NCBI RefSeq assembly: GCF_019195395.1
Contig: NZ_CP078067.1
Span: forward strand, 2,371,783 to 2,435,782
DNA length: 64,000 nucleotides
Reading direction: 5' to 3'
Source of the DNA: Kaistella faecalis
Lineage (GTDB): Bacteria > Bacteroidota > Bacteroidia > Flavobacteriales > Weeksellaceae
This document shows, one piece after another, positions 4,428 to 57,127 of this stretch. The position numbers and the translations under genes were made by a program. Every line of letters starts with the position of its first letter. The stretch's first letter is position 1. The notes below the pieces were generated by a model. It worked only from the letters and a program-made list of their open reading frames with translations. It did no database searches and was not told the DNA's origin.

Positions 4428-4486
4428 TTTTGCTTAATTTTATCTTTTTGTTATCAATATCTTGTTAATGATTTAACTGCTGATGT

Positions 4487-5050
4487 CTATTTCGCCGGTT
4501 TTTTCGGGCTCATCATCATAATCATTCTTTTACCTTCTAATTTAGGCAGCTGATCAACTTTTCCTACATGTTCTAGTTCCTGAGCCAATTTTAAAAGAAG
4601 AATTTCTCCCTGATCCTTGAAGATGATCGAACGGCCTTTGAAGAAAACATACGTTTTCAGCTTAGATCCCTCCTCCAGAAATTTTTCAGCATGTTTTTTC
4701 TTGAATTCGTAATCGTGATCATCAGTCTGAGGACCGAATCTGATCTCTTTTACAACAACTTTAACCTGCTTGGCCTTTAATTCTTTAGTCTTTTTTTTCT
4801 GCTCGTAAAGGAATTTTTTATAATCCAGAATCCTGGAAATATAGGGCTCAGCTTTGTCGGAAATCACCACCAAATCCAGTTCCTGGTCTTTGGCAATTTC
4901 TAATGCTTTCGCTAAAGGATAAACTCCCGGCTCTACGTTATCACCGACCAAACGTACTTCTTTAGCACGGATCTTTTCATTGATCTGGTGCAAATCTTCC
5001 TGTACGCGCCGCTGTGGGCCTCTACCTCGGTAATTGAATTTCTGTGCTAT
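4487..5050 (-). CDS. infC: Translation initiation factor IF-3, probable AUA start
   Basis: IF-3 binds the 30S subunit and checks the start codon and initiator tRNA. The body is clear: [16 protein letters not shown] in the N-domain and [19 protein letters not shown] at the linker/C-domain. The frame stays open upstream of the TTG at 4993 and encodes further IF-3 N-terminal residues ([20 protein letters not shown]). The best placed start giving this arm is ATA at 5050-5048, 23 nt after the thrS stop, giving 187 residues. No ATG, GTG or TTG occurs between it and 4993. Rare starts (AUU, AUC, AUA) are established for infC in other bacteria and allow IF-3 autoregulation. Product certain, start inferred. 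Confidence 0.93.
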
Positions 5051-5073
5051 GGTGTTAAATTTTAAAGTTAATT

Positions 5074-7023: not shown

Positions 7024-7119
7024 CGGATTTTCTGTGAATTTTTATTTCTGTGGTTTTATAATTCTGAATGTTTTTTGACGGTATACAAAAGAACTGTGGA
7101 AAAAAACTAAAATTGGATT

Positions 7120-7188
7120 CTAGCCCCGATTGTAACGGAAATCCTTTTTTTGCGCAGCAAAAAAAGATTGAAGTGGAAAGCGGGTGGG
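7120..7188. repeat. Flavobacterial intergenic hairpin repeat, copy 1
   Basis: The element begins CTAGCCCCGATTGTAACGGA, has an inner stem ATCCTTTTTTTGC / GCAAAAAAAGAT and ends GGAAAGCGGGTGGG. A related element with the same frame, GGAAATCCTTTTTTT...AAAAAAAGATTG..TGGA-AGC, is found at 39941-40024. The remaining 7001-7278 sequence holds only the thrS promoter and a terminator. Confidence 0.75.
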
Positions 7189-7220
7189 ATTTATAAAAGA
7201 AGATATTATTTGTTGCTCAT

Positions 7221-39878: not shown

Positions 39879-39940
39879 CTAAAATCAAACTTTATTGATT
39901 CACTGTTTTGTTAAAATACGGTGCTTAATTAAAGATTCTT

Positions 39941-40024
39941 CCCGCGCCCCGGATAGCAATGGAAATCCTTTTTTTTACTCCGGCAAATACGTTGGCAAAA
40001 AAAGATTGTAATGGATAGCCGGAA
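39941..40024. repeat. Flavobacterial intergenic hairpin repeat, copy 2
   Basis: CCCGCGCCCCGGATAGCAAT, GGAAATCCTTTTTTTT, a GC-rich loop, GGCAAAAAAAGATTG and TGGATAGCCGG. It shares the frame of the element at 7120-7188, with a longer loop. It lies between ligA and the 2-oxoacid dehydrogenase gene. Confidence 0.7.
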
Positions 40025-40045
40025 ATGTGCGCCAAAAAAACAGTT

Positions 40046-42118
40046 TTACTGAGTCAGAATTTCCTTGATTTTTGCAGAAACCTTTTCTGCGTTGGGCAAC
40101 ATCTCTTTTTCTAAAACCAAGTTGATCGGAACTGCAGGCAGATCCAGTGAACCCATAGCTTCGACGGGTGTATCGAGATAACGGAAACAGTTTTTGGAAA
40201 TACGGTGTGCAAAAGCTTCCGCAAAGGAATTATTGAGCTGCTCTTCGGTCAAAACCAAACATTTTCCGTGAAGTTTCACCCTTTCGAATACTAAATTTTC
40301 ATCCAGCGGAATCAATGTCCGCAAGTCGATGATTTCAACTTTTCCTTCATGGTTTTTAGCTGCTTGTTTTGCCCAGTAAACGCCCATTCCGTAGGTTACA
40401 ACCGCCATGGTTCTCCCTTTTTCTGTTTCTGATTGATCTGCTTGAAGAAGAATATTTCCTTTTCCTAAAGGCAAAATATAATCTTCGGCAGGTTCTATGG
40501 TTTTAGCGTCTTCGGTGCCTGGAACTTTACTCCAGTATAAGCCTTTATGTTCAAGCATCACGACCGGATTAGGGTCATAATAGGCCGCTTTCAGCAATCC
40601 TTTAAAATCTGCAGCATTGCTTGGGTAGGCAACTTTAATTCCTTTAATGTTGGCGAGTATGCTTTCGATACTTCCACTGTGATAGGGACCCCCGCCGCCG
40701 TAAGCTCCAATAGGGACACGGATGATATTGCTCACCGGAAATTTTCCGTTGGATAAGTAATTTGATTTTGAAATCTCTGTAATCAACTGGTTGATGCCGG
40801 GATAAATATAATCAGCAAACTGAACTTCAACAATAGGTTTCAGTCCAACGGCGCTCATGCCAACCGTTGATCCTATAATATATGCTTCCTGAATCGCGGT
40901 ATTGAAAACTCGTTTATTCCCAAACTTCTGGCCCAAAGTCACGGCTTCCCGGAAAACTCCGCCAATCCTTTCGCCGACATCCTGACCATATAATAAAGCT
41001 TCCGGATGTTTCCACATGATTTCCTGAATCGCGTGAATGGCAGCATCTACCATGACTATTTTTTCCTGGCCTTTCGGTTCACGTTCCCCCACTTCTTCGG
41101 TAATAGGCGTAGGTGCAAAAACATGGTTTTTTACAGTATCTGCTTTTGGATCTTCCGCAGCAATCGCTTTTTGGAATGCCTGTTCGGCTTCGAGTCTTGC
41201 TTTCTTTTCAATCTGTTTCAAAAGATCCTCGCTGATTCCGTCTTCTGTAAGTGTATTTCTTAAAATGTTTCCCGGATCTTTGGCTCGGTGTTTTGCCAGA
41301 TCTTCTTCATCGCGGTAAAATTCGCGACGGACGCCGGAAGTGTGGTGGCCAATTAATACAGTCTTTGCACACACGAGCATTGGTTTTCTTTCTGTACGAA
41401 CAAAATCAACCGCTTTTTTCATGGCTTCAAAACTTGCCACAAAATCAGTTCCGTCTACCCGCATTCTGTTCAAACCAACAAAACCTGCAGCAAAATCGTA
41501 GGCATCTGAAGTACGGGCTTCTTCCTTGGTTACTGAAATTCCCCACTCATTATCCTGTACAAGAAAAATAATAGGGAGCTGATGAAGGGCCGCAAACTGA
41601 AAAGCTTCTGAAACTTCGCCTTCTGTAACTGAATTATCCCCGAAACTGCAGACTACAACAGGATTGTTTTCGAAAGTCTTTAAACTAAACTCCTGAATAT
41701 ATTTGATGCCCTGCGCAACTCCTGTTGTTGGTATGGCCTGCATGCCTGTTGCCGAACTTTGGTGAATGATTTTCGGTAGATTTTCTTCACGGCTGGAAGG
41801 GTGAGAGTAGTAAGAACGGCCGCCTGAAAATGGATCATCAGCTTTTGCCAAAAGCTGTAACATCAAACGGTAAGGTTCAAAACCAATTCCCATCAGTATA
41901 CTTTCGTCACGGTAGTAAGGCGAAACCCAGTCATCTTTGGTCAGTTGATAAGCGGTGGCAAGTTGAATCGCTTCGTGCCCGCGTGAGGTGCTGTGGACGT
42001 ATTTCGTGATGTTTCGGTTTTCTTCATAAATGTCTGCCATAGCCTTGGCAAGCATCATGTGGTGGAAAGCCTTTAGTAAAATCTCTTTTGAAACGTTGTG
42101 CTTTGTGCGAATTTCCAT
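40046..42118 (-). CDS. 2-oxoacid dehydrogenase E1, fused alpha and beta subunits
   Basis: Thiamine-diphosphate E1 component, probably for branched-chain 2-oxoacids, with alpha and beta fused in one chain. The start is ATG 42118 (MEIRTKHNVSKE), giving 690 residues; an in-frame extension of 45 codons upstream is not conserved-looking and crosses the promoter. The alpha half (1-360) has the TPP motif from GDNSVTEGEVSEAFQFAALH to FLVQDNEWG; the beta half starts around residue 385 (IVMVDAAIHAIQEIMWKHPE) and has GQDVGERIGGVFREAVTLGQ. Such fusions are common in Bacteroidetes. It is the last core gene before the island. Confidence 0.92.
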   Translation of the reverse strand: MEIRTKHNVSKEILLKAFHHMMLAKAMADIYEENRNITKYVHSTSRGHEAIQLATAYQLTKDDWVSPYYRDESILMGIGFEPYRLMLQLLAKADDPFSGGRSYYSHPSSREENLPKIIHQSSATGMQAIPTTGVAQGIKYIQEFSLKTFENNPVVVCSFGDNSVTEGEVSEAFQFAALHQLPIIFLVQDNEWGISVTKEEARTSDAYDFAAGFVGLNRMRVDGTDFVASFEAMKKAVDFVRTERKPMLVCAKTVLIGHHTSGVRREFYRDEEDLAKHRAKDPGNILRNTLTEDGISEDLLKQIEKKARLEAEQAFQKAIAAEDPKADTVKNHVFAPTPITEEVGEREPKGQEKIVMVDAAIHAIQEIMWKHPEALLYGQDVGERIGGVFREAVTLGQKFGNKRVFNTAIQEAYIIGSTVGMSAVGLKPIVEVQFADYIYPGINQLITEISKSNYLSNGKFPVSNIIRVPIGAYGGGGPYHSGSIESILANIKGIKVAYPSNAADFKGLLKAAYYDPNPVVMLEHKGLYWSKVPGTEDAKTIEPAEDYILPLGKGNILLQADQSETEKGRTMAVVTYGMGVYWAKQAAKNHEGKVEIIDLRTLIPLDENLVFERVKLHGKCLVLTEEQLNNSFAEAFAHRISKNCFRYLDTPVEAMGSLDLPAVPINLVLEKEMLPNAEKVSAKIKEILTQ

Positions 42119-42124
42119 ATTGAA

Positions 42125-42132
42125 CAAATATA
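42125..42132 (-). promoter_or_regulatory. -7 element of the 2-oxoacid dehydrogenase gene
   Basis: TATATTTG on the minus strand ends 6 bp before the ATG at 42118. If the start site is at the usual distance, the message has almost no leader. Confidence 0.45.
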
Positions 42133-42366
42133 AATATTTTTCTCTGCATTGCCTTACTTTTCGCTCAAATAGTGATGAATAGGGTTTTTTTATTATTCTA
42201 TTATGTATTCTGAAGTAATTGAAAGTATCGTAATTAAGAGTTTGTTGTACCACTTGTTATACCTTTCAAGTAGATTTTGCCGCCAGAAATCAGCCCTATT
42301 TTTCCTAGATGTTGCGAAAGATTTGAAACAATTTTTCGTAAAAAATAACTCTTAAATTTTATTACA

Positions 42367-43584
42367 ATGGCATCATTAAAACTTATCCTAAAGACTCAAA
42401 GCGAGGACAAAGCTGGGAATTCCCCCTTGTACATCAGAGTAATCCAGAATCGTAAAACAAAATTTATTTTTACTGGAATCAAGCTTAATAGAAACCAATG
42501 GGATCAGGACCGGCAGAAGGTTCGAAAAAACTATCCAAATTCAACCAGGATGAATGCGGTGTTGGCTCAGAAAATTGCGGATGCAAGCATTATGGCTTTG
42601 GAAATTGAGAAGAAGACTAAAAATGTTACCGCATACGAAATAAAAAAAGCTTTAAAGGGAGAAAACGGTACAAAATTTTTCCCATATAAAGACAAGGTTT
42701 TTAAACAACAATGTAGTAAGTGGTCTGAAGACACATTATACAATTACATACAATGGATAGAAAAGTTTTCTAATTTCGTTCAAAATGAAAATCTTTTGAT
42801 AAACGAAATTGATGTTCCCCTTATTAAAGATTATGTTCATTATATGGAGTCAGTACTTAAAAATAGTGGTGTAACTGTTAAGTCGTGTTTGACGCCTTTA
42901 TCTATGATTTTTAATTCTGCTATTGACGAACAGTTGGTAGATAAAAATTCATATCCCTTTGATAAAATCAAAATTAAAATGGAAAGCGCAACTAGAAGAT
43001 CCCTCAATATGGACGAATTCGAACGCTTGAAAAACTATTCTCACTCACATGGTAAGAAGGGTCAATTATTTCAGAATATGTTTGTGTTTGCAGTTTCAGC
43101 AGCAGGTTTTCGATACAGGGATTGTGTTTGTTTGAGATGGAGTGAAATTAATTTGACTGAGGGAATTATTGAAAGAAAAATTAATAAGTCTGGTAGAGTA
43201 CATCGCGTAAAAATTGGTCCTACCGCAATATCGATATTAATGAAGTATTATGATGTAAGCGGCGAAAAGGACTCTTTAGTATTTCCGGTTATTTCAACTG
43301 AAATTTTTGATAGATCATCAGCAGAAGAGAAACGAAAATTAATTTGTAATTCTAACGTCCTCTGTAATATCCACCTTCGCCAGATAGGAAAAAATCTCGG
43401 TTTTCCATTTAATCTTCATTTTCATTTAAGCCGCCACACCTTCGCAACTCATGCATTGAATAATGGGATGCGTATAGAATATGTGAGCAAGCTTATGGAT
43501 CATACAAAAATTTCAACCACTCAGATTTATGCTAAAGTCATGAATGAGGAACTTGATAAAGCTGTAGACCAGTATATCATATAA
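42367..43584 (+). CDS. Tyrosine recombinase (integrase)
   Basis: Site-specific recombinase that opens the accessory island, 405 residues. The N-terminal part (SLKLILKTQSEDKAGNSPLY, FIFTGIKLNRNQWDQDRQKV) is an arm-DNA-binding domain, then a SAM-like core-binding domain (about 105-205), then the catalytic domain with GFRYRDCVCLRW (Arg), HLSRHTFATH (H-x-x-R), LMDHTKISTTQIYAKV (His and nucleophile Tyr). All catalytic residues seem intact. This is the arm-domain type used by Bacteroidetes conjugative and mobilisable elements. No att core could be assigned: the partner end is not in the window. Confidence 0.92.
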   Translation: MASLKLILKTQSEDKAGNSPLYIRVIQNRKTKFIFTGIKLNRNQWDQDRQKVRKNYPNSTRMNAVLAQKIADASIMALEIEKKTKNVTAYEIKKALKGENGTKFFPYKDKVFKQQCSKWSEDTLYNYIQWIEKFSNFVQNENLLINEIDVPLIKDYVHYMESVLKNSGVTVKSCLTPLSMIFNSAIDEQLVDKNSYPFDKIKIKMESATRRSLNMDEFERLKNYSHSHGKKGQLFQNMFVFAVSAAGFRYRDCVCLRWSEINLTEGIIERKINKSGRVHRVKIGPTAISILMKYYDVSGEKDSLVFPVISTEIFDRSSAEEKRKLICNSNVLCNIHLRQIGKNLGFPFNLHFHLSRHTFATHALNNGMRIEYVSKLMDHTKISTTQIYAKVMNEELDKAVDQYII

Positions 43585-43822: not shown

Positions 43823-44719
43823 ATGGCGCATCCCCACAAGCTCCTTGAAACGGTAAATTTTCCACAATTAACAACACGTACCCCCTCACAGGCAATAAGT
43901 TCCCAATTCGACATCATTCATTCGGATGCTCGGGATTGTAACGAATACTGCCAGCAGTTAATAAATAAGGCGTTCGCACTAAAGCATTCTGAATTTTGTG
44001 ATTTCCTTACCCATCATTGTGATTTTGCTGATGACAGTATGACCTGGATCAATAAGTTCGAAAAACTGCTTACGGTTAATGCTGAACTTTTCGTCGGGAA
44101 GTGCGCTGAACTTCGACTGATTAAATTGATAAGTTGCCTGGAAGGTAAAAGAAATTCATTGAAGTCTCAGCAAGCAGCACCCGGTCTCATGGGACTGAAT
44201 AGAACGAATATCAACGCATTGTCAGAAGATCGTCACTTTTCATTTGTTGAGACTAAGCAAAGTGTTGAAAGAATGCAGTCTGAAAATGCTAAGATTCTTT
44301 TCCTTACTTCTGAGATTCTGGAATATCAGGAAGCAGATATCATAATGCATAATAAAAAACTGTGCGATTACGATATCTCATGCGAGAAACTGATTAAAAA
44401 AATCAGAACCCTGTCTCAGCTTAAAAGTGAATTGCAGGTAGAAATTTCCAATACTCATAAACCAGATGGTACTAAAGAAAAAATCCGTCTAAACGGTCCA
44501 CAGAATATTCTAACGAATGCAATTAAGCAGATGATGTTTGAGCTTAAACCAACAGGTCATGCGTACTTACAGGGTAAGATAGGGGACATGGCTACATTCA
44601 TTTGCGATAACTTTGCAGATGAAGAAGGCAACGCACTTTCCTTTGATACCATCCGAACATATCTTTCTCCAACCAGAAATGATAAAGATCCGAACTTGGA
44701 GAATCAGGTAAAATTCTAG
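43823..44719 (+). CDS. Hypothetical protein of the mobile island
   Basis: Protein of 298 residues that I do not recognise. It is cytoplasmic, largely helical and charged. The C-terminal 50 residues (YLQGKIGDMATFICDNFADE, then FDTIRTYLSPTRNDKDP) recall a motif that I have seen at the end of other Bacteroidetes mobile-element proteins, but I cannot name the family. Between integrase and the excisionase-like gene, a regulatory or excision-related role (as for RteC proteins) is possible; this is conjecture. Confidence 0.7.
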   Translation: MAHPHKLLETVNFPQLTTRTPSQAISSQFDIIHSDARDCNEYCQQLINKAFALKHSEFCDFLTHHCDFADDSMTWINKFEKLLTVNAELFVGKCAELRLIKLISCLEGKRNSLKSQQAAPGLMGLNRTNINALSEDRHFSFVETKQSVERMQSENAKILFLTSEILEYQEADIIMHNKKLCDYDISCEKLIKKIRTLSQLKSELQVEISNTHKPDGTKEKIRLNGPQNILTNAIKQMMFELKPTGHAYLQGKIGDMATFICDNFADEEGNALSFDTIRTYLSPTRNDKDPNLENQVKF

Positions 44720-44784: not shown

Positions 44785-44815
44785 GTCTCATGAGACCAAA
44801 TGAGACCAATGAGAC
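44785..44815. promoter_or_regulatory. Operator-like GTCTCAT/ATGAGAC array upstream of the HTH gene
   Basis: Perfect 12-bp palindrome GTCTCATGAGAC at 44785-44796 followed by two further ATGAGAC copies at 44800-44806 and 44809-44815; another GTCTCAT stands at 44719-44725. All lie 50-146 bp before the excisionase-like gene. It looks like a cluster of binding sites, probably for control of excision or replication genes. Confidence 0.55.
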
Positions 44816-44864
44816 TTTAAGCTTCTTTTTTCCTTTGCTCCATAATCTTAAAACAAATATTATT

Positions 44865-45143
44865 ATGGAAGCAACGACATTCACTTCAGATCAGATCGAC
44901 GAGCTAATTATCAAAATTGAAAATCTTTTGGTGCAGCTCGAGAAGAAAACTGCATCCCCCCAACAATCTTTTATAGACAACAAAACCTTTCTCCAAATTA
45001 TGGGCGTTTCTCAGAGAACCGGTCAGGCGTGGCGCGATGAGGGTAAAGTGGCCTTCTCACAGGTAGGTAATAAGATCTACTATAAAATGGAAGATATTGA
45101 GAAATTTCTTGCGGAGTACCATAACAAAGCATTTGCTAAGTAG
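44865..45143 (+). CDS. Excisionase-like helix-turn-helix DNA-binding protein
   Basis: A 92-residue protein from ATG 44865; an open stretch upstream (to 44790) covers the operator array and is not used. The N-terminal helix (TFTSDQIDELIIKIENLLVQ) precedes a MerR/excisionase-type HTH: FIDNKTFLQIMGVSQRTGQA, WRDEGKVAFSQVGNKIYYKM, EDIEKFLAEY. Small proteins of this type are found next to integrases in Bacteroidetes elements, where some act as excision factors. A terminator follows. Confidence 0.85.
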   Translation: MEATTFTSDQIDELIIKIENLLVQLEKKTASPQQSFIDNKTFLQIMGVSQRTGQAWRDEGKVAFSQVGNKIYYKMEDIEKFLAEYHNKAFAK

Positions 45144-45262: not shown

Positions 45263-47443
45263 ATGAAATCCACCATATTCAAAAACTTTAATGAAGTTGT
45301 AGAACAGAAGGACATTCTGAAAATTCTCGACGATATCAAAAACGGAACCTACCGCAATGCCATCACTTACCTCCGGAAATCCCTTACTGAAGACAAAAAA
45401 GAAGCTGCAGAAAGAGCCAAAAAATCACTTCCGGCATTCACACCCTCAGCAACCTTTAAAGGCGGTAGAAAAATGGAATTCCTGTCAAATTACAATGCTT
45501 TAGTAGTTCTGGACATCGACAAGATCACCAAAGAAAAGCTTACCGAATCTAAAGAAAACCTGCAGAAAAACGAATTTGTATTTGCGGTATTCACAAGTCC
45601 ATCGGGAAACGGACTGAAAATATTTGTGAAGGTCAGTACCGGGAAAACCGAACACAAAGAAACATTCTTAAAGCTTCAGGAGTACTTCGAAAATCTTTTG
45701 CAGCTGGAAATCGACAAATCAGGCAAAGACATCACCCGACTTTGTTTCTTTTCCTACGATCCTGAACTGTATCTGAATGAGAATTCAAAAGAATTTTCGG
45801 TGACTGAACCACAAGAACAACCTGAGATAAAACCGCCTGCATCAGAACCCAGCATCCAGAACCCAACACCCATCAATTACGATGTACTGTACCATCACTG
45901 CATCCAGTTCACCGAAAAGAAATATCAGTTTATTGAAGGCAGCCGCAATTACTTTGTTTTCACTCTCGCCAACAACCTGAACAGAAAAGGAGTTCCCGAA
46001 TCCTTAGCCCTGGGCTATATCCTCGCCGATTACGACTACAACACCCAGGAAGTAATGACCGCTGTAAAAAGCGCATACTCAAATACCTCCGAACATGCTA
46101 CCGATGACTATCAGCCACAAAAAAAATCCGCAAAATCTGAGCAATCTGCGAGCATAAGGAAAAATTCAGGTGAATCATCCGCGCCAACAAACCAAGAAGG
46201 AATCATGACAATAGAGGAGGAGGAAGAACCCGCCCACATCGACAAGCTCGAAACCTTCTTAAACAATCGCTATAAATTCCGTTACAATGAAGTCTTGGGG
46301 AAACTTGAATACCGGAGAGTAAACGGAAAGACCTGGAAATACATCACCGACTTTAAAGAAAACTCAATCCTGAGAGAAATCCAGAAAGCAAAAGTACGCT
46401 GCAGCATCAACTCCCTCCGGAACCTGCTTCACTCAGACTTCTGCGAAATGTACGATCCCTTCAAAGATTATTTTGAAAATTTGGTGGAATATACGGGTGA
46501 TAAAGACCACATCGAAGAGCTTGCCTTAACTATCACCACCACAAAACCTGATCTCTGGAAAGAATGTTTTAAAAAGTGGTTTGTTGCTATGGTTGCCTGC
46601 GTTATCAACGAAAAGCAAATCAACCAGACAGTAATTGTCTTTTCCGGAAAACAGGGACTGGGTAAAACAACGTGGATAGAAAAGCTAATGCCTCTGGAAC
46701 TGAAGCAGTATATCTTCTCCGGAACCGTAAATCCTAACAATAAAGATACGCTGATCCACCTGGCAGAGTGCATGCTTATTAACCTGGACGAACTCGAAAA
46801 CCTGAACCGTACAGAAATCGGTTCACTCAAAGAACTCATCACTAAAACCCATATCAGAATGCGAAAAGCCTACGGCCACAACAACGAAAACATGCCACGC
46901 CGTGCCAGCTTCGCCGGCAGCGTAAACACCGCCCAGTTCCTTAACGACACCACCGGTTCCCGTCGCTTCTTATGCTTCGAGCTCGAAAACATCGAATACC
47001 AACATGAAGTAGATATAAATCTTTGTTATGCGCAGGCTTATAAATTGTACCAGGACGGTTTCCGCCATTGGTTCAATCAGGAGGAGATCAAAGACATCAA
47101 CGCGAACAATGAACAGTACCAACTTAAAAGCCCTGAGGAAGAATTACTACTTACATGGTTTGAACCAGCCACCAAAGAAACTGCAAATAAATTCTACAAC
47201 ACTTCCCAAATTGCTGTCCGATTAGCAGAACTCGGTAACCTCCATGTGACAGACGGTACCGTAAATAAGATCGGTAAAGCCTTAAAGAAACACGGCTTTC
47301 AGAGATATTCAAAAAACCATGCTTATGTATATCCGGTGAAGGAATTTGATTATGATGAAGTGGATAAAAGAAACCGATCACTGCAAAGTACTGAAAAGCA
47401 GGAATTCATAACCCCAAAGCTTCCGTATCGATTCGAAAATTAG
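45263..47443 (+). CDS. VirE/BT4734-type replication protein (primase-helicase-like)
   Basis: A 726-residue protein of Bacteroidetes mobile elements. The N-terminal 180 residues match the BT4734/VirE_N domain (RKMEFLSNYNALVVLDIDKI, FAVFTSPSGNGLKIFVKVST), which is related to primase-polymerase folds. A middle helical part (about 215-280) resembles a primase C-terminal domain. The VirE P-loop ATPase follows, with Walker A G462-KQGLGKT and LINLDELENL as Walker B. A C-terminal winged-helix-like region ends the protein. It probably primes or unwinds DNA during element replication. The adjacent origin-like repeats at 47465-47727 support this role. Confidence 0.85.
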   Translation: MKSTIFKNFNEVVEQKDILKILDDIKNGTYRNAITYLRKSLTEDKKEAAERAKKSLPAFTPSATFKGGRKMEFLSNYNALVVLDIDKITKEKLTESKENLQKNEFVFAVFTSPSGNGLKIFVKVSTGKTEHKETFLKLQEYFENLLQLEIDKSGKDITRLCFFSYDPELYLNENSKEFSVTEPQEQPEIKPPASEPSIQNPTPINYDVLYHHCIQFTEKKYQFIEGSRNYFVFTLANNLNRKGVPESLALGYILADYDYNTQEVMTAVKSAYSNTSEHATDDYQPQKKSAKSEQSASIRKNSGESSAPTNQEGIMTIEEEEEPAHIDKLETFLNNRYKFRYNEVLGKLEYRRVNGKTWKYITDFKENSILREIQKAKVRCSINSLRNLLHSDFCEMYDPFKDYFENLVEYTGDKDHIEELALTITTTKPDLWKECFKKWFVAMVACVINEKQINQTVIVFSGKQGLGKTTWIEKLMPLELKQYIFSGTVNPNNKDTLIHLAECMLINLDELENLNRTEIGSLKELITKTHIRMRKAYGHNNENMPRRASFAGSVNTAQFLNDTTGSRRFLCFELENIEYQHEVDINLCYAQAYKLYQDGFRHWFNQEEIKDINANNEQYQLKSPEEELLLTWFEPATKETANKFYNTSQIAVRLAELGNLHVTDGTVNKIGKALKKHGFQRYSKNHAYVYPVKEFDYDEVDKRNRSLQSTEKQEFITPKLPYRFEN

Positions 47444-47464
47444 TTAAAAGTAATGTAAATAATA

Positions 47465-47727
47465 CGGTGCAAATATCAATATGTTTTAGCGGTGCAAAAT
47501 GCACCGCTTTGCGTTAAAAGGAGTGAGTAAGATAAGTAAGCACTTTTTGGCTAAAAACTTTTTTTATTTTTTTTCTGAAAAAATACTTCTTAAACCGGTG
47601 CAAATCGACGAAAACAAATCATGCCCTTTCATTAAAATACATTCTTTAGCCTTATTTTAATAAGTAAATTTCTAAACAAAAAAATAAAAATTTTCTTTTG
47701 CCGGAATTTGCTTACTTACTTACTCAC
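47465..47727. repeat. Origin-like region: CGGTGCAAA repeats and a long-range inverted repeat
   Basis: CGGTGCAAA occurs at 47465-47473, 47490-47498 and 47596-47604; the middle copy is within the hairpin AGCGGTGCA / TGCACCGCT (47488-47508). GTGAGTAAGATAAGTAAGCA at 47523-47542 is repeated inverted at 47709-47727 with one base missing, enclosing a very AT-rich stretch of 166 bp. No gene is visible in 47444-47789. The features resemble an origin or a control region of the element; function is inferred. Confidence 0.6.
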
Positions 47728-47789
47728 ATTACGGTTTCTCTTTTTTTCTTCCGTTTGCTCTTTGTATATTTAGCGTTTAAATTTCATAA

Positions 47790-50700
47790 ATGGCAACAAG
47801 CTTTACAAAAGTTCTAGAGAAATATCGCAAAATTTCATTTTCCCAAAGAGACAAAGGGGATCGGTTCGAACGATTAATGAAAGCTTATTTGCTCACTGAT
47901 CCCAAATACACAGCAATATTTAAAAAAGTTTGGATGTGGAATGAATTTCCTTCCAAAGCTGATCTAGGAGGTACAGATACCGGTATCGATCTGGTAGCCT
48001 TAACTTTTGATGGTGATTATTGGGCAATCCAATGTAAATGTTATGAAGAAAATACGGTAATCGATAAAAAAGCTGTTGACACGTTTTTATCTACATCAAG
48101 CAGATCATTCAAGAATGATGATTTACAGACCACACATTTCTCACAATGCTTATGGATTTCCACATCGAATAACTGGACCAATAACGCCACAGAATCTTTA
48201 AAAAACCAAAGACCACCTGTTTCTAGAATAAATATATACGATTTAAATCAGGCACCTGTTGATTGGGAAAAGTTAGAAAATAATATAACTGGGGAACAGG
48301 CAAGAACTAAAAAATACCCACTCAAAGACCATCAGAAAGAAGCTCTGACAAACACACACACTTATTTTAAGGAAAATGACCGTGGTAAACTTATCATGGC
48401 CTGCGGTACAGGTAAAACCTTTACATCACTTCGAATTGCAGAAAATGAAACCTCTGGAAAAGGTCTTATTCTTTTCCTGGTTCCTTCCATAGCATTACTA
48501 GGACAAACGCTTAATGAGTGGAGTGCCCAGGCGATGGAAAAAATTAATCCTATTTGTATTTGCTCGGACCCGGAAATTACCAAGAAAAAAACTAAAGTTG
48601 AGGATATCGATACTACGTCGGTAATAGATTTGGCCTTACCGGCCTCCACTAATGTGCCGAATATTATTCAGCAGTTTCATAGATTGAAATCACATGACAA
48701 CGGAGGGATGACGGTAGTTTTCTCAACTTACCAATCTATTGAAGTTATTGCAAAAGCACAGGCAGAATTAGGTAAAATATTTCCTGAGTATGCGGAGTTT
48801 GATCTCATTATTTGCGACGAAGCTCACAGAACCACAGGTGCCAAATTAGCGTCAGAAGACGAATCTGCCTTCACCAAAGTCCACGATAACGAGTTTCTTA
48901 AAGCTAAAAAGAGGCTTTACATGACGGCCACCCCACGGTTATACGACCAGGAGACAAAAAGTAAAGCTGCTCAGGCAGAAGCGCTCTTATGGTCAATGGA
49001 TGATGAAAAAATCTATGGTGAGGAAATCTACAGAATTGGTTTTGGGGAAGCGGTAGGAAGAAAACTTCTTACTGATTACAAAGTTCTTATTCTAACATTA
49101 AGTGAAACTGACGTGCCACCGGTTATTCAGCAAATGATATCCAATGGAGAAAGTGAAATCCGTGTTGATGATATGCCGAAGCTTATTGGCTGCATTAATG
49201 CATTATCTAAACAGGTTTTGGGCGACGAAGGTTTGCTAAAAGCTACCGATCCTAACCCTATGCGTAGAGCGGTCGCGTTTTGTTCTACAATTGCTAATTC
49301 GAAAACAATTACCCAGACTTTAAATTCTGTTTCGGATACCTATATTGATACACTTCCCGAGGAAAGCAATGTTAATACGGTTTCAGTTTCCTCAGATCAT
49401 ATTGATGGTACCATGTCGGCAACAGAGCGTAACAAACTCTTGGATTGGTTGAAAGACGAACCGGAAGATAATGAATGCCGTGTACTTACAAACGTACGCT
49501 GCTTAAGCGAAGGTGTTGATGTGCCTTCCCTGGATGCAGTGATGTTCCTTTCCGCTCGGAATAGCCAGGTAGATGTGGTGCAGTCAGTTGGTCGTGTGAT
49601 GCGTTTATCCGAAGGAAAGCAGTACGGTTACATTATTATCCCCGTCGTCGTTCCCACCACAATAAGTGCAGAAGAAGCATTGGATGATAACGAACGGTTT
49701 AAAGTGGTTTGGACAGTTCTAAACGCACTTCGTGCTCACGATGACCGTTTCAACGCAACAGTAAACAAAATCGAATTAAATAAGAAAAAACCATCCAATA
49801 TTTTAGTGGGCGGAGTCGCAACCGGTTTTTCTCCCGACGGCAAACCCTACGAGAAAGGCGCTTACGATGGTGGTTCAACTGAAGTGTTGGAAAAACAGCT
49901 GAAAATCCAGTTCGAGGAACTTCAGAATGCAGTGTTCGCACGTATGGTCCAGAAGGTCGGCGATCGCCGTTACTGGGAGCAGTGGGCTAAATCCGTTGGG
50001 GATATTGCAGCCAGACAAAAGGAACGCATCATTCAGCTCATTGTAGATTCTCCTAAACATGCTAAGGAATTCGAACGCTTCCTGAAGGGGTTACGCAAAA
50101 GCATTAACCCTTCCATAGAACAGGAACAGGCGGTTGATATGCTTTCTCAACACATCATTACAAAACCTGTTTTTGAAGCGTTGTTCGATGGATATTCGTT
50201 TGTTCAGAATAATCCCATGAGTAAATCAATGCAGAAGATGCTAGATTTATTGGAAGAACAAACAATTGATGAAGATGTTAAAACTTTAGAATCATTCTAC
50301 GAATCCGTAAAAATGCGGGCTTCGGGGATTGATAATGCTGAAGGCAAACAGAAAATCATCTTAGAATTATACGATAAGTTCTTTAAAACCGCCTTCCCTA
50401 AAATGGTTGAGCAGTTAGGAATTGTCTACACCCCAACCGAAGTGGTCGATTTTATTATTCACTCCGTTGCAGATGTACTTCAAAAAGAATTTAACCGGAA
50501 TATTTCAGATGAAAATGTACACATTCTTGATCCATTTACTGGTACAGGAACCTTCATTACCAGATTACTCCAAAGTGGTGTAATCAGACCGGAAGATTTA
50601 GAAAGAAAATACAAGAAAGAAATTCACGCAAATGAAATTGTCTTGTTGGCTTATTACATTGCTTCAATAAACATCGAAAATGTATTCCATGACTTAACTC

Positions 50701-52640
50701 CTGATCCCGATGATGGTATTGGCAAGGAAGTCTATCATCCTTTTGATGGTATTTGTTTAACCGATACTTTCCAGCTGGGTGAAACAAAAGAGGGCGAACA
50801 GTTATTTGATGAAATGTTTCCGCAAAACTCAAAAAGAGTTCAGGATCAGCAGAAAACCCCTCTCCGAATCATAGTGGGTAATCCTCCTTATTCAATTGGT
50901 CAAAAATCTGCGAATGATAATGCAAAAAACCAATCATACCCAAGATTAGATAAAAAAATTGCAACCACCTATGCAAAAGAATCGAATGCTGGCCTGAATA
51001 AATCTTTATACGATGCTTATATAAAAGCCTTTAGATGGAGTACCGATCGGTTAGATCCAAAACATGGGGGTATCATTTCTTTTGTGTCAAATGGGGCATG
51101 GTTAGATGGTAATTCTACTGATGGTTTCAGGAAATCTCTGGAAAAAGAATTCGACTCTATTTATATTTTTAACCTTCGGGGTAATGCAAGAACTAGTAAT
51201 GAACAAAGAAGAAAGGAAGCAGGCAATGTTTTTAAAGAAGGTAGCAGAACCCCTATCGCAATAACTCTTCTAGTAAAAAATCCTGAAGCAAAAAGAGAGA
51301 AAGCTAAAATCTATTATAAAGACATTGGTGATTATCTTTCAAAGGATGAAAAATTAAAAATTATCTCAGAAAATAAGTCTTTCATAAATAGGGATTTAGG
51401 ATTACAAGAATTACAAACAAATGAGCATGGCGATTGGATTAATCACAGAAATTCTGCTTTTGATGATTTTGTCCAATTACAACCAAATAAAAAATATTTG
51501 ACATCAGAAAAAAGCTTTTTCATATCTCAAAGTTTGGGAACTGCAACTAATAGAGATGCTTGGGTTTATAACTTTTCAAAAAAAACATTAAGAAATAATA
51601 TTAATAAAACTATCAATTATTACAATGAAAATTGCAATAATTTACTAACCGATAAATCATTAAAAATTAATAAAGATTCAAAATTAGGAAATTGGACAAG
51701 AGATTGGCAAAATGCAATTTCTAAAGGAAAATTATTTGTTGAAAATGAAAATGAATACAAAACCACTTTATATAGACCATTTACTAAAATAAACTCTTAT
51801 TTTGATGATGATTTAAACCAAGAAAGATACCAATTGCCAAAAATATTTTCAGGTAAAAATATTGCTATTTCTGTCGTTGGTACTGGGGGAAGTAAGAATT
51901 TTTCAGTTATCATTACAGCTTTAATTCCAGACTTGCAATTAATGTCTAATGGACAAATCTTCCCACTATATTATTACGAAGAACCAAAAACAATCCAAAA
52001 AGGCTTATTTGACGATCCTAGTGAATCTGATTATGTTAGACGAGATGCAATTTCAGATTTTATATACGAACAGGCAAAGAAACAGTATGGTAAAAATGTA
52101 ACCAAAGAAGACATTTTTTATTACGTGTATGGATTTCTGCATTCAAAAGATTACAGAGAAACTTTTGCTGCCGATCTAAAGAAGATGCTTCCAAAACTCC
52201 CTTTACTGGAGGATGTGAAAGACTTTTGGGCATTCTCCAAAGCTGGGCGTCAATTGGCAGCTTTACATCTGGATTATGAAGCTGTTCCTGCCTATCCTGG
52301 CGTTTCAGTAACAGAAAGCAACAATTACCAGGTGACAAAAATGAAGTTCCCTAAAAAGGACCAGAAAGACAAGATCATCTATAATAGCAACATAGTAATT
52401 TCAAACATTCCGGCAAAAGCCTATGAGTATGTTGTAAATGGTAAATCAGCCATCGAATGGATTATGGAACGCTACCAAATCACCACGCACAAAGATTCAG
52501 GAATCACAAATAATCCGAACGATTGGGCTGCTGAAGTAGGCAATCAACGGTATATTTTAGATTTACTTCTGAGTATTATTAATGTTTCCATACAGACAGT
52601 CGATATTGTAAACGATCTTCCAAAATTAAATTTTGAATAA
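47790..52640 (+). CDS. Type ISP single-polypeptide restriction-modification enzyme
   Basis: One 1616-residue chain with all activities. In order: an Mrr-like PD-(D/E)XK nuclease (GGTDTGIDLVAL with D67, then AIQCKCYEE with Q81-C-K83); a superfamily 2 translocase with Walker A ACGTGKT (204-210), DEAH at 343-346 and motif VI SVGRVMRLSEG; a helical coupler; a gamma-class N6-adenine methyltransferase with DPFTGTGTF (914-) and NPPY (1031-1034); and a C-terminal target recognition domain. Size and order match LlaGI/LlaBIII-type enzymes. It would methylate one strand of an asymmetric site and translocate to cut unmodified phage DNA. The TRD portion (about 51300-52000) is more AT-rich than the rest, as expected for a diversifying region. 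Confidence 0.92.
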   Translation: MATSFTKVLEKYRKISFSQRDKGDRFERLMKAYLLTDPKYTAIFKKVWMWNEFPSKADLGGTDTGIDLVALTFDGDYWAIQCKCYEENTVIDKKAVDTFLSTSSRSFKNDDLQTTHFSQCLWISTSNNWTNNATESLKNQRPPVSRINIYDLNQAPVDWEKLENNITGEQARTKKYPLKDHQKEALTNTHTYFKENDRGKLIMACGTGKTFTSLRIAENETSGKGLILFLVPSIALLGQTLNEWSAQAMEKINPICICSDPEITKKKTKVEDIDTTSVIDLALPASTNVPNIIQQFHRLKSHDNGGMTVVFSTYQSIEVIAKAQAELGKIFPEYAEFDLIICDEAHRTTGAKLASEDESAFTKVHDNEFLKAKKRLYMTATPRLYDQETKSKAAQAEALLWSMDDEKIYGEEIYRIGFGEAVGRKLLTDYKVLILTLSETDVPPVIQQMISNGESEIRVDDMPKLIGCINALSKQVLGDEGLLKATDPNPMRRAVAFCSTIANSKTITQTLNSVSDTYIDTLPEESNVNTVSVSSDHIDGTMSATERNKLLDWLKDEPEDNECRVLTNVRCLSEGVDVPSLDAVMFLSARNSQVDVVQSVGRVMRLSEGKQYGYIIIPVVVPTTISAEEALDDNERFKVVWTVLNALRAHDDRFNATVNKIELNKKKPSNILVGGVATGFSPDGKPYEKGAYDGGSTEVLEKQLKIQFEELQNAVFARMVQKVGDRRYWEQWAKSVGDIAARQKERIIQLIVDSPKHAKEFERFLKGLRKSINPSIEQEQAVDMLSQHIITKPVFEALFDGYSFVQNNPMSKSMQKMLDLLEEQTIDEDVKTLESFYESVKMRASGIDNAEGKQKIILELYDKFFKTAFPKMVEQLGIVYTPTEVVDFIIHSVADVLQKEFNRNISDENVHILDPFTGTGTFITRLLQSGVIRPEDLERKYKKEIHANEIVLLAYYIASINIENVFHDLTPDPDDGIGKEVYHPFDGICLTDTFQLGETKEGEQLFDEMFPQNSKRVQDQQKTPLRIIVGNPPYSIGQKSANDNAKNQSYPRLDKKIATTYAKESNAGLNKSLYDAYIKAFRWSTDRLDPKHGGIISFVSNGAWLDGNSTDGFRKSLEKEFDSIYIFNLRGNARTSNEQRRKEAGNVFKEGSRTPIAITLLVKNPEAKREKAKIYYKDIGDYLSKDEKLKIISENKSFINRDLGLQELQTNEHGDWINHRNSAFDDFVQLQPNKKYLTSEKSFFISQSLGTATNRDAWVYNFSKKTLRNNINKTINYYNENCNNLLTDKSLKINKDSKLGNWTRDWQNAISKGKLFVENENEYKTTLYRPFTKINSYFDDDLNQERYQLPKIFSGKNIAISVVGTGGSKNFSVIITALIPDLQLMSNGQIFPLYYYEEPKTIQKGLFDDPSESDYVRRDAISDFIYEQAKKQYGKNVTKEDIFYYVYGFLHSKDYRETFAADLKKMLPKLPLLEDVKDFWAFSKAGRQLAALHLDYEAVPAYPGVSVTESNNYQVTKMKFPKKDQKDKIIYNSNIVISNIPAKAYEYVVNGKSAIEWIMERYQITTHKDSGITNNPNDWAAEVGNQRYILDLLLSIINVSIQTVDIVNDLPKLNFE

Positions 52641-52646
52641 ATATTG

Positions 52647-54584
52647 ATGCAGCATAGAGTTTACTTTTATTCTAAATATGACGGTTCTATTTTCAGCTCC
52701 TTAACAAGGATTGGAACGATCATGACAACTCTAGATCTGATAAATATTACTGACGTTAATGATATACTTGAATTGTATCAAGTTCTGATTTTTTTTGATC
52801 ATAACCTATTTCCAAACACCTGGACCAGTATTGAGGTAGAAGAAAATAAATTAAAAATTCCCGCAATTAAGAAAGCTATTATTTCATTTTTCATCAATAA
52901 AAATTCTTCAACATTATATCAAAGTTACACAGAGGTGGATTTCCAGCTAAAGAATAGTTTTTGGCAAATTATTGACAAGTTTAATTTTCATCAATTAATA
53001 TCATCAGAAGATTTTTCTTCTATTCTCGTTAACTGTAATCATTTAATTTCTGAAGTTTTACAGCATAAAAAATTAGTTGATATATTTAAAAATGAGATTA
53101 AGAACTATTTACTGTCACATCCAATTTTATCTGCTGAGATAATTCTGCGCGAATATGAGGAAAAAAGGGATGATAATTCATCACGACTATATTTACCTTC
53201 CACTTTAAGTTTGGCTGACAAGGAAGATATCATTTTACAATACATAAGCGCGCCGAGTCCAAACTTAAATTATTTAGATCTAATTATACATTCTAAATCT
53301 GACGATAATTTAAAATTACATGACCGTACGAAATTAAATGCAAAAAAAAGGTCGGCTCAAATTACTCAAGAATTTTTCGAACAAAATACTGGAATAACTT
53401 ATGGTGTTTCAATTGTATTGAATAAGGACTCGGAAATCCCACAAGAGATTAGATCTCATGATGGTAAATTAGAAGTTACATTTGGGGGGAAATTTTTAGA
53501 CAACATTACCGGCAAAACAGAATTATTTGAGTATATCAAAGAAAACATGTTTATCTTGGATAAGCTTAATTGCATTGATTTAGTGAAAAGGAAATCGGAA
53601 ATATCAACCTTTGAAGGCATTTTTATGTCCTCGAGAAATGCTTATAACCCTGGTGTTTCCTTTAATCAAAAACTGATGATAATTCAAGGTTCAATACAAA
53701 TGTTTCAGCTCTATTTAAAAAAAAGAGAGTTATCGCTGGAAGATCTGCTGCTACATTATGTAAACGTCGTCCTGAACTCTAAATATAAAGTCAATAAATT
53801 TCATGTCAAATTAAATATTTCTTCTGAAAGCTATTTAGATAAAATTTTAACAGCGATCCCACAAATTGATTCGCTACTTAAGCAGTATAAAATATTTGTC
53901 GAAGATGGTCATATAGACAGCGATTTATTGCAGATCAGTTCTAAGCCACTAATATTTTCAGAAATTCCAAGTAAATCTGAAAAAAAATATTATTATCCTA
54001 ACCAGGACAAGCTTTCGAAAATTTTCAACAATTTCTTTGCAGAAATTGGTATTTTTTATCATCCCGAGTTGTTTAATAGTGAGTATGATAATTTCTATAG
54101 TTTTCTTATAAAAAATGATGTTCGTGTTGCTCAATTTGATGACTTTCAACAACGTGGTCTGGAAGAATTAATAGAAGAAAATTACCTCTTTATTGATGAT
54201 AATGGTTTTCTACGAATTAGAAACGAGGCTTTCTTCGTTACCCTTCACGTCTTATACAAATTTGAGGTAGTAAATTATTTCTCTTTACATTATTTACTTC
54301 GACCATCGATGGAAATGCTTAATAATTTTGAGATGGTTACTCATGAGAAAAAATTATTTACAAAAGGGGAAAGTGATTTATTGAACTTTATCTTAAACAA
54401 ATCGCGTTTTACAGATGGCTATGATATTCGTAACAAATATATGCATGGTACAAATCCTTTAGATGAAGAAATCATAAAAAATCACTATAATATTGTTTTA
54501 ATGGTTTTAATAATGATAGTTTTTAAGATCGAGAACGATTTAAAAGCATCGCAGCCTAAACTCATACTCACTTTAGAAATATAA
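52647..54584 (+). CDS. Large protein with C-terminal HEPN-like (DUF4209-type) domain
   Basis: A 645-residue protein starting 6 bp after the restriction enzyme stop, almost surely cotranscribed (ATG 52647). The N-terminal 500 residues are helical and not recognised. The C-terminus has YDIRNKYMHGTNPLDEEI with R595-x4-H600, the RX4-6H motif of HEPN RNases, and the context (helical bundle, NKYMHG) resembles DUF4209. HEPN proteins frequently act as RNase toxins or abortive-infection effectors. The tight link to the type ISP enzyme suggests a back-up defence or a partner; this pairing is inferred. No immunity gene is visible. Confidence 0.72.
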   Translation: MQHRVYFYSKYDGSIFSSLTRIGTIMTTLDLINITDVNDILELYQVLIFFDHNLFPNTWTSIEVEENKLKIPAIKKAIISFFINKNSSTLYQSYTEVDFQLKNSFWQIIDKFNFHQLISSEDFSSILVNCNHLISEVLQHKKLVDIFKNEIKNYLLSHPILSAEIILREYEEKRDDNSSRLYLPSTLSLADKEDIILQYISAPSPNLNYLDLIIHSKSDDNLKLHDRTKLNAKKRSAQITQEFFEQNTGITYGVSIVLNKDSEIPQEIRSHDGKLEVTFGGKFLDNITGKTELFEYIKENMFILDKLNCIDLVKRKSEISTFEGIFMSSRNAYNPGVSFNQKLMIIQGSIQMFQLYLKKRELSLEDLLLHYVNVVLNSKYKVNKFHVKLNISSESYLDKILTAIPQIDSLLKQYKIFVEDGHIDSDLLQISSKPLIFSEIPSKSEKKYYYPNQDKLSKIFNNFFAEIGIFYHPELFNSEYDNFYSFLIKNDVRVAQFDDFQQRGLEELIEENYLFIDDNGFLRIRNEAFFVTLHVLYKFEVVNYFSLHYLLRPSMEMLNNFEMVTHEKKLFTKGESDLLNFILNKSRFTDGYDIRNKYMHGTNPLDEEIIKNHYNIVLMVLIMIVFKIENDLKASQPKLILTLEI

Positions 54585-54611: not shown

Positions 54612-54722
54612 ATGGAAACCGCAATACGCACAATCAGGAAAATTCAAGATTGGAACGAAACTGAAATACAAAAAAGAGCTGACTATTTGTACAACCAGGC
54701 AATAAAAATCTGGCAGGAATAA
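54612..54722 (+). CDS. 36-residue peptide resembling a nuclease C-terminal tail
   Basis: Short reading frame METAIRTIRKIQDWNETEIQ, then KRADYLYNQAIKIWQE. The pattern W-x-E-x-x-I-x-x-R-x-x-x-L...A-x-x-I-W resembles the end of DUF1524/GmrSD-type HNH nucleases. It may be the remains of a lost defence gene or a small real peptide. It lies 27 bp after the HEPN-like gene on the same strand. Confidence 0.35.
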   Translation: METAIRTIRKIQDWNETEIQKRADYLYNQAIKIWQE

Positions 54723-55455: not shown

Positions 55456-55932
55456 ATGAAACCCCGCTATTCCATAAAACTCTACCGTCTTGATAATGAA
55501 TCAGATATCCTGATCCCCCTTCTACCGGCCAAGGTAAAAGCAGGCGGTTACGGAAGCTTTGAAAGCCCGGCGCTGGATTTTCCGGAGGACACAATCGATT
55601 TGGTAAAGCTCTTGATAAAAGACAAAGACACAACCTTTTTTGCTAAGGTTTCCGGACCATCCCTGGAGGGAATCGGCATATTTGACGGTAATATCCTGAT
55701 CGTTCAGAAAGGATTATTTCCAAGGGAAAATGACATTGTTGTAGTGTATTATGGTGGCGAATTTTTCGTCAAAAGGTACAAGCCAAAATACCACGAGAAT
55801 ACGTTGAAAATGAAGACCATCAAATTACAGTCTGAAAACCCTGCATATAATGACATGGATATCACCGAAGACACAGACTTTGAATTGTGGGGCGTAGCAA
55901 CCTGGAATTTAAATAATTTGCGAAATAGGTAG
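55456..55932 (+). CDS. umuD: UmuD-like S24 self-cleaving protein
   Basis: Polymerase V accessory protein, 158 residues. The likely self-cleavage bond is A29-G30 (KVKAGGYGSFESPA). Catalytic Ser69 is in VSGPSLEGIGIFDGN and the general-base Lys106 in GEFFVKRYKPK. After RecA-stimulated cleavage the C-terminal part would join UmuC. The N-terminus lacks a LexA DNA-binding domain. umuC is present but separated by a membrane protein gene. Confidence 0.9.
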   Translation: MKPRYSIKLYRLDNESDILIPLLPAKVKAGGYGSFESPALDFPEDTIDLVKLLIKDKDTTFFAKVSGPSLEGIGIFDGNILIVQKGLFPRENDIVVVYYGGEFFVKRYKPKYHENTLKMKTIKLQSENPAYNDMDITEDTDFELWGVATWNLNNLRNR

Positions 55933-56025
55933 ATTAAAACAAAAATAATTTTACAAAATAAAACCAGCTGCCAATCATAGGCGTTATTATTACTTGCAAA
56001 AAATTAAATCTTTACAACAATGTAA

Positions 56026-56925
56026 ATGCCTAAAAATATGGAGCCATCAAAATCAAGCTTATTCGGTACTTTAAAGACTTATTATACCGATCACAAGGAT
56101 TTCTTACCTCTTTTCGTTTTGATTCCGACGGTAATTGGCGGCATATGGCAAACTCTCGAATTGATGCTGATTGGTTTTTCTACATTACGTTTTTTCTCCG
56201 TATCACAGTTGGTGAGTGATGGTATAATAATTCTATGCTTTACTGTTATATTTTATATATTTTACATGATCGTACTGCGTAATTTAAACCCTCGCAAAAT
56301 TTTTATTAGCTATGTTGAAAATCAAGACCCTTTCATTGGTTTATATGGTTCGCTAGCTATGTTTATATTGGTCGTTTTCTATATAATAGTCTACGTCGTA
56401 CCTGACATTCCTTCAGAAGATTTTCGAACACTCCCAATAAACGTATCATTGGCACTCATTTTCTCCTATATTTTTTTATTTCTAATGTTCTTGGGATCTC
56501 TGATTATGTTAGTAGTACAGTTAGTAAAGAAATATTATTTCAAAAGTATCACCACTCTAGAGCAGCTCGATGATAAGCAAAAAAAAATAGAAGGTTATTT
56601 AAAAAAAAAGGATGCGTTTTGGTCTACTTTTTATGCCTTTATAAGTATACTTATTTTGGCGGTGGTGCATATTTCAATTTTTGCAGTTCTAATATATATA
56701 CATTCGTTACGTAATCAAGTAGTACTTGCAAAGGACATTGAAAATTTCAGATATTTAGAAAGCAATAAGCATTTAAGCAGTGAACTCCAGAATAAGTATG
56801 ATACATGTGAACTTGCATATTGGAATGATAAATATATTTTTTTAAAGTTATCAAGTGAAAAATTGGTAAATAATGACTACAAAATATTGATATTAAAGAC
56901 TGAAGATGTGCTGTTCCCAAAGTAA
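56026..56925 (+). CDS. Membrane protein inserted between umuD and umuC
   Basis: A 299-residue protein with about five hydrophobic segments (FVLIPTVIGGIWQTLELMLI; IIILCFTVIFYIFYMIVLRN; LAMFILVVFYIIVYVVPDIP; LALIFSYIFLFLMFLGSLIM; FYAFISILILAVVHISIFAV) and a charged coiled-coil linker (LEQLDDKQKKIEGYLKKKDA). No family recognised. It splits the usual umuD-umuC pair. The same frame stays open for 58 codons beyond the stop (to TAG at 57100-57102), so the gene may be shortened by a nonsense mutation. AT content is high compared with neighbours. Confidence 0.75.
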   Translation: MPKNMEPSKSSLFGTLKTYYTDHKDFLPLFVLIPTVIGGIWQTLELMLIGFSTLRFFSVSQLVSDGIIILCFTVIFYIFYMIVLRNLNPRKIFISYVENQDPFIGLYGSLAMFILVVFYIIVYVVPDIPSEDFRTLPINVSLALIFSYIFLFLMFLGSLIMLVVQLVKKYYFKSITTLEQLDDKQKKIEGYLKKKDAFWSTFYAFISILILAVVHISIFAVLIYIHSLRNQVVLAKDIENFRYLESNKHLSSELQNKYDTCELAYWNDKYIFLKLSSEKLVNNDYKILILKTEDVLFPK

Positions 56926-57127
56926 GAAGATAAAAACTTCAATACTGATTCGGATTCTGTAATTTTAAATAATAATGTTACCGCTACAAATGATATAGAC
57001 TTGGTTAGAAAATTAAAACACACAATTCTCCCAGTTTATACCCTTTTAATAAATTATCTTTTCTGCTATCGATTTGTTTTTTGGATAAGCGGCAAGTTTT
57101 AGATTTTATCATAAAAAACAAAAATAT

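Follow-up and report, generated by a model that had tools for sequence, protein, structure and literature searches.

In PICIs the replication origin directly follows the rep gene on its 3′ side and always consists of two iteron sets around an AT-rich region (PMC6092414). The accessible text of that report finds this layout in all islands studied there and in no other known bacterial replicon, and it describes that the pri-rep-ori stretch of PICIs replicates a plasmid. For the SaPIs the Rep protein is described as binding through its C-terminal domain, and binding by the C-terminal domain has been shown for Cch2 of SCCmec (PMC7581432, accessible text). In the open-licence literature we found no report on the replication origins of VirE/VapE elements from Bacteroidota.

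We analysed a stretch of 64,000 nucleotides from Kaistella faecalis, which we call the window. It contains a conserved unit of 206 bp (47522..47727, delimited by sequence comparison) behind a gene for a VirE/VapE-type primase-helicase. In our view this unit very probably serves a 25.2-kb integrative defence island as replication origin (ori); the island would then be a replicon of the PICI type. As in the pri-rep-ori of the SaPIs and the E. coli PICIs, the unit is situated directly 3′ of the initiator gene and two iteron sets flank an AT-rich region; as in the PICI origins, the iteron sequence varies between elements and the initiator is a homologous primase-helicase (PMC6092414, accessible text). 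The unit differs from the PICI origins in that it is found in Bacteroidota, is associated with a BT4734-type primase and carries two N4-GTAAG iterons per arm, with the arms 166 bp apart. Unlike in the PICIs, defence cargo often stands directly behind the unit, and no sign of phage induction or packaging was seen. The cch2 locus of SCCmec likewise has a helicase gene and directly behind it an iteron site to which the C-terminal domain binds. Its helicase, however, belongs to a different family, and the site is described as three direct iterons of 5 nt without an inverted pair of sets (PMC7581432).

The integrative island

The left boundary of the island is marked by one copy of a 20-bp direct repeat, ATATTGAACAAATATAAATA (42117..42136). 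The right copy is found at G000:C1:2439115-2439134, which corresponds to window coordinate 67333 and thus lies beyond the window. In 10 of 10 relatives examined the left flank of the window is matched only up to 42134-42140, and in the genome G026 the chromosome continues at the left junction with the sequence that starts at 2439126 in the genome of the window. The empty site carries one exact copy of ATATTGAACAAATATAAATA in G022 and a variant in G026; in relatives a single copy stands beside the same dehydrogenase gene (exact in L234, variant in L233). Since ATATTGAACAAATATAAATA is found at both junctions and the empty site exists in relatives, the island measures 25.2 kb.

The integrase, the 298-aa protein, the HTH_17 protein, VirE and the two cargo genes are on the + strand. 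The first gene of the island encodes a tyrosine integrase of 405 aa (42367..43584; PF00589 with E 4e-20, PF17293, PF13102; PHROG integrase). With this integrase, the 20-bp repeats and the empty site, the element possesses, as a PICI does, an integrase and a specific attachment site. There follow a 298-aa protein of the conserved backbone (43823..44719), which has no Pfam or PHROG match and whose homologues are found upstream of VirE in relatives, and an HTH_17 protein resembling excisionase/AlpA (44790..45143; PF12728 with E 9e-7, PHROG excisionase/regulator with E 5e-6). All three genes are present upstream of VirE, on the same strand and within 6 kb, in 19 of 38 relatives, or in 17 of the 29 whose available upstream sequence exceeds 4 kb. 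Behind VirE and the unit the cargo consists of a single-chain type ISP/IIG restriction-modification enzyme (47790..52640; Type_ISP_C, ISP_coupler, Mrr_cat_2, ResIII; PADLOC PDLC03597, bits 2286) and the candidate defence protein PDC-S56 (52644..54584; PADLOC PDLC05039, E 8e-169). Elsewhere the cargo is a type I restriction system, a DUF262-type protein (HEC-06/SspE-like match) or a TmtA match. NBU1-like mobilizable transposons of Bacteroides presumably share with the island a tyrosine integrase, an HTH protein and a VirE/primase-type gene. Unlike in NBU1, VirE is followed here by the unit and defence cargo, and a mobilization gene was not recognised among the window proteins examined.

Several smaller features were noted in and around the island. 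It also carries an S24 peptidase/UmuD-like gene and a UmuC-like polymerase (55456-58390). A short open remnant behind PDC-S56 (54612-54722) resembles, by eye, the end of a DUF262/DUF1524-type protein and is possibly left over from an earlier cargo. A CTTAC motif is located just inside the left end (42153-42157), and an iteron-like GGAGTAAGC about 40 bp inside the right end (L247, 6069-6077), which is adjoined by a thermonuclease-like gene (L247, 5513-6034). A related element on a viral contig (L229, 10243-11808) carries, by eye, S24-like and nuclease-like genes. Two Flavo-1 RNAs score above the gathering threshold in the window (7118-7191 and 39936-40029), the second of them near the left flank of the island.

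Given the integrase, the unit could also be a recombination site, either an attachment site or a site of cargo exchange, whose arms are bound by the recombinase and at whose edge the cargo is swapped. In agreement with this the cargo starts immediately after the unit, and this is where near-identical VirE-unit pairs begin to differ; there are also half units (L007, L047, L048, L049, L053) and tandem units beside an integrase (L052). The ends of the island, however, are the 20-bp repeats, whose empty site is known from relatives. The unit is located within the island, 5.4 kb from the left end, and therefore it is not the attachment site of this island, a candidate which we rejected. Moreover, the unit keeps its place behind VirE and not behind the integrase, and its plan is retained behind far VirE relatives. 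We consider a recombination site improbable and favour the origin.

The proposed replication protein

The proposed initiator of replication is the VirE/VapE-type primase-helicase (PriRep; 45263..47443, PF08800 and PF05272). The protein has 726 aa and consists of a BT4734-like N-terminal domain, a VapE-like ATPase and a C-terminal winged helix. BT4734-like proteins are assigned to the archaeo-eukaryotic primases in the accessible text of PMC5862659. Among solved structures the best sequence match is 7pds, 'Similar to D. nodosus vapE' (phmmer E 5e-12). A first model of the full-length protein reached pLDDT 71.6 and pTM 0.42 and was weak in the ATPase. Instead we used a second model, which covers residues 325-726 (402 residues) and was made with a deeper alignment (pLDDT 84.3, pTM 0.76). 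This predicted structure matches 7pds, 'PriRep1 with dsDNA', with a Foldseek E of 7e-19; the fold match has a Z of 25.9 and comprises 362 residues across model residues 1-378, winged helix included. The next fold matches are NrS-1 (Z 14.8) and the SaPI5 primase-helicase (Z 13). We take 7pds to come from SaPI1. VirE thus shares the arrangement of ATPase and C-terminal domain with PriRep1 of the SaPIs (7pds) and with the SaPI5 primase-helicase (7ola, 7om0), and it is an SF3/AAA+ ATPase with a C-terminal DNA-binding domain homologous to PriRep. It differs from both proteins by a sequence identity of only about 20% and by the BT4734-like primase fused to its N-terminus.

We suggest that replication might be initiated in this way. 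VirE, made by the gene just upstream of the unit, would act like the PriRep of SaPIs and PICIs, as a primase-helicase that loads itself. Through its C-terminal winged helix it would bind to the inward-facing GTAAG-type iterons, and two VirE hexamers, one per arm, could melt the AT-rich DNA between them. The N-terminal primase would then start synthesis and the excised circle would be replicated. Sequence and comparison show how the unit is built, where it stands relative to the gene, that its four iterons change in concert, that the initiator is homologous to PriRep and where the island ends. We infer these activities, that is binding, melting, priming and replication, as well as their occurrence after excision.

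Repeats downstream of the virE gene

The initial annotation had described three direct copies of CGGTGCAAA, one of them in a hairpin, followed by a wide inverted repeat around AT-rich DNA. All these elements are present. The copies of CGGTGCAAA are located at 47465-47473, 47490-47498 and 47596-47604, and the middle one is part of the hairpin AGCGGTGCA-AAA-TGCACCGCT (47488-47508). The inverted repeat is formed by GTGAGTAAGATAAGTAAGCA (47523-47542) and the reverse complement of GTGAGTAAGTAAGTAAGCA (47709-47727) with 19 matches out of 20 and one gap of 1 nt, and its arms are 166 bp apart. Between the arms (47542-47706) the DNA has 75.8% AT versus 61.7% in the window, a value reached by only 1.3% of 165-bp stretches. 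In 2000 dinucleotide shuffles of the region a 9-mer with at least three G/C was never present three times. Aligned as a whole, the dyad extends over about 72 nt per side with a score of 37 versus a maximum of 25 in 5000 shuffles. An ungapped test over 20 nt gives 15 matches out of 20 and shuffles reach 17, but this test is blind to the inverted repeat because of the 1-nt gap.

As an iteron, CGGTGCAAA did not hold up. Among 32 loci at least two copies of GGTGCAAA beside the unit are found in the window alone. We rejected CGGTGCAAA in this role as it is a local feature, whereas the inverted repeat and its surroundings are conserved. Judged from sequence comparison, the true iterons are GTAAG-type 9-mers inside the wide inverted repeat. 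The hairpin AGCGGTGCA/TGCACCGCT with one CGGTGCAAA inside (47488..47508, + strand) is probably the terminator of the VirE gene, and its sequence is not conserved. An uninterrupted stem of at least 7 bp is found between VirE and the unit in 17 of the 32 loci; these stems differ in sequence, and a T-rich tail usually follows. In the remaining loci the gap has interrupted stems or lacks such stems.

The unit starts 79 bp past the stop of the primase-helicase gene. Each arm is composed of two tandem iterons of about 9 bp with the sequence N4-GTAAG or a close variant, which face inward. In the window the left outer iteron is GTGAGTAAG (47523..47531) and the left inner iteron ATAAGTAAG (47532..47540), both on the + strand. 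The right inner iteron TAAGTAAG (47711..47718) and the right outer iteron, again GTGAGTAAG (47719..47727), are on the − strand. The AT-rich centre of the dyad (47541..47710), a possible melting region, contains the third CGGTGCAAA (47596-47604).

Distribution and position of the unit

When 47440-47790 was used as a DNA query, 21 of the 36 genomes of the genus, that of the window among them, gave matches; about ten of these are near full length with about 70% identity. The first 20 aligned units are all 205-207 bp long, and their middle varies freely. With a sequence profile we found units in 20 of the 36 genomes of the genus and, at the family level, in 31 of 148 genomes from 10 of 33 genera. 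Matches extend to Pedobacter, Parapedobacter, Paenimyroides, a Bacteroidales MAG and a viral contig. In the fetched loci the profile gave 72 matches, 61 full and 11 partial. After five duplicates of full units had been dropped, 56 units were analysed, one of which (L115) is shortened to 179 bp.

If the repeats serve an origin, they should recur beside homologous VirE-type genes. For this comparison loci were fetched by protein alone, and 38 of them contain a VirE with at least 50% identity including the C-terminus. In 31 of the 38 loci the unit is placed 29-108 bp past the VirE stop and in two more at 351 or 402 bp, in total 33 within 402 bp. Since the profile was trained on units that come in part from the same genomes as the test loci, it is the position of the units and not their bare detection which carries weight. 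The remaining five VirE genes (L162, L163, L165, L186, L190) are without a near unit, which speaks against an origin. In some groups a second unit follows about 350-370 bp past the VirE stop. The layout found is that of a PICI-type origin immediately 3′ of the initiator gene.

Viewed from the units, 39 of the 56 are located within 500 bp behind a VirE gene. The other 17 count against an origin: four are 1.75, 6.1, 11.6 and 16.3 kb away from VirE, and for 13 VirE is absent from the fetched stretch, two of these (L125, L144) being less than 400 bp from a contig end. In L107, L108 and L109 the unit is found 6-16 kb behind VirE, beyond the cargo; AAAGTAAG or a close variant occupies all four iteron places in two of these units and three of four in the third. 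The cargo after the unit varies and comprises ISP, type I or DUF262-type restriction genes, a TmtA match and metal genes, where the labels for metal genes and DUF262 were assigned by eye.

Iterons and an AT-rich dyad are also found in partition and transfer sites, and this counts in favour of a partition site (parS/centromere) or an origin of transfer (oriT). The preceding gene, however, encodes an initiator-type primase-helicase and not ParB or a relaxase, and the ParA, ParB and relaxase families were unmatched among the nine window proteins scanned. In addition the plan fits the PICI origins as published (PMC6092414). Of the two functions that had been proposed for the repeats, a replication origin is supported by the unit behind VirE in 33 of 38 loci, while nothing supports a partition site. 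We regard parS or oriT as extremely unlikely.

Concerted change of the iterons

The iterons differ between units, for example GTGAGTAAG in the window, GGCAGTAAG in L037, GGGTGTAAG in L054, TCGGGTAAG in L046, GTGGATAAG in L113 and AAAAGTAAG in L050; iterons of further units include GGATAAGTA. We located the arms by the cores alone and then compared the three bases before each core in 30 representatives with less than 80% identity. Of the three bases, on average 2.23 agree between left inner and right inner iteron, 2.10 between left outer and left inner, 1.90 between right outer and right inner and 1.77 between left outer and right outer. Permutation lowers the agreement to 1.07-1.16 (1.07-1.08 for the first three pairs), and in 20000 permutations the observed value was never attained for any pair. 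As the iterons agree in direct orientation too, base pairing of the arms alone cannot explain them. Agreement in direct orientation is to be expected of a protein-binding site that is repeated. In some units, however, the arms are unlike, such as GGCAGTAAG with GGGTGTAAG in L041, and these count against an origin. The iteron type covaries with VirE (partial Mantel r 0.33 for the helicase part and 0.26 for the C-terminal part). Both parts track the iteron type equally closely, so that this comparison does not point to the binding domain in particular.

These data also bear on two further explanations. One is that the unit is a regulatory region or a structured RNA: it could act on the cargo as promoter or attenuator, or form a long hairpin at the 3′ end of the virE mRNA. 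Indeed the unit is intergenic and partly self-complementary, and most of the next genes have the same direction. But it is indifferent to the kind of next gene, and the next long ORF is in the opposite direction in L170, L175, L182 and L185 and 0.6-1.2 kb away in L153 and L161. Furthermore, pairing does not require that the tandem iterons agree in direct orientation, and an Rfam match is absent at 47 kb. Thus, a regulatory or RNA function is in our opinion very unlikely. The other explanation treats the unit as a small, MITE-like mobile repeat which came to lie beside VirE by chance; copies are dispersed over 20 of the 36 genomes of the genus, and 13 of the 56 units have no VirE in the fetched stretch. 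The ends, however, differ between copies and agree within a copy, which is the opposite of ends defined by a transposase, and the distance past the VirE stop is nearly fixed. We find a mobile repeat hardly credible and retain the origin.

Far VirE relatives, plasmids and phages

The profile of the unit has no match behind far VirE relatives (25-41% identity), which come from Bacteroidales, Prevotella, Paludibacteraceae and others. These nevertheless keep the layout, which predates the sequence, with other iterons, namely GGCGGACAA (L196), GCGGACATT (L193), GGGACAGCA (L201), ATCCAGCAT (L202) and TGCACAGT (L208). We applied a fixed strict test that asks for an inverted repeat of at least 14/16 plus a tandem repeat within 450 bp. 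Of the 33 far relatives 14 pass it, whereas none of 165 shuffles does and, among 172 regions downstream of other ORFs in these loci, 2 do; the 19 far relatives that fail count against an origin. Near relatives pass in 16 of 38 cases (1 of 190 shuffles, 4 of 208 control regions), and many of them are missed because their arms often differ by one base in the iteron spacing. Two iteron sets flanking an AT-rich region are thus found in the window, in the 56 units and in 14 of 33 far relatives.

We also surveyed VirE in six plasmid and phage records. In a plasmid record of Bacteroides finegoldii (L253) the dyad stands 346 bp behind the BT4734 gene and is a perfect 16/16 pair with 80 bp between its arms. 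The dyad was not found in two other records, L254, where the next gene follows immediately, and L252, where only a gene fragment was matched. It is absent behind VirE in three phage records (L251, L255, L256), which again counts against an origin.

It is possible, although we would rather doubt it, that replicating, PICI-like islands with defence genes form a large class in the Bacteroidota that has been overlooked, defined by a BT4734-VapE initiator and an adjacent origin of inward-facing iterons. The iterons would diversify fast, probably against cross-replication or incompatibility, and orphan and tandem origins may be used in trans or serve as decoys. Irrespective of such a class, the presence of the layout next to BT4734/VapE genes throughout the Bacteroidota, where the iterons are often unrelated, would bring the PICI replicon type to a new phylum and give the very common VirE-type genes of the Bacteroidota a testable job. 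Origin sequences are predicted for dozens of islands with restriction and other defence genes. These would offer ready-made replicons for laboratory vectors as well as iteron-initiator pairs with which a change of replication specificity could be studied.

Partial and tandem units

As a sign of replication we looked for circular contigs, but none of ten short contig records, which include two pairs of the same contig under two locus names, has terminal repeats. Partial units are present in L007, L047, L048, L049, L053, L139, L141, L150 and L151, and many are broken near the middle of the dyad. They may be relics, or a single iteron set may have been kept alone. One of them is a second unit in the genome of the window (G000:C1:550988-551175; L007, 10989-11176), of which only the left half is present, with 90% identity over 62 bp. 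It precedes MazG-like, GIY-YIG/helicase-like and PHP/AAA-type genes, which resemble another defence island (all labels by eye).

In the locus L052 an integrase gene is directly followed by three tandem units, each with an iteron type of its own (4329-5202); a fourth unit is 10.6 kb away (15780-15980), and VirE is absent from this stretch. Three tandem units without VirE are not what one origin needs and count against this function. The iterons of L052 are unlike those beside the VirE gene elsewhere in the same genome (L055).
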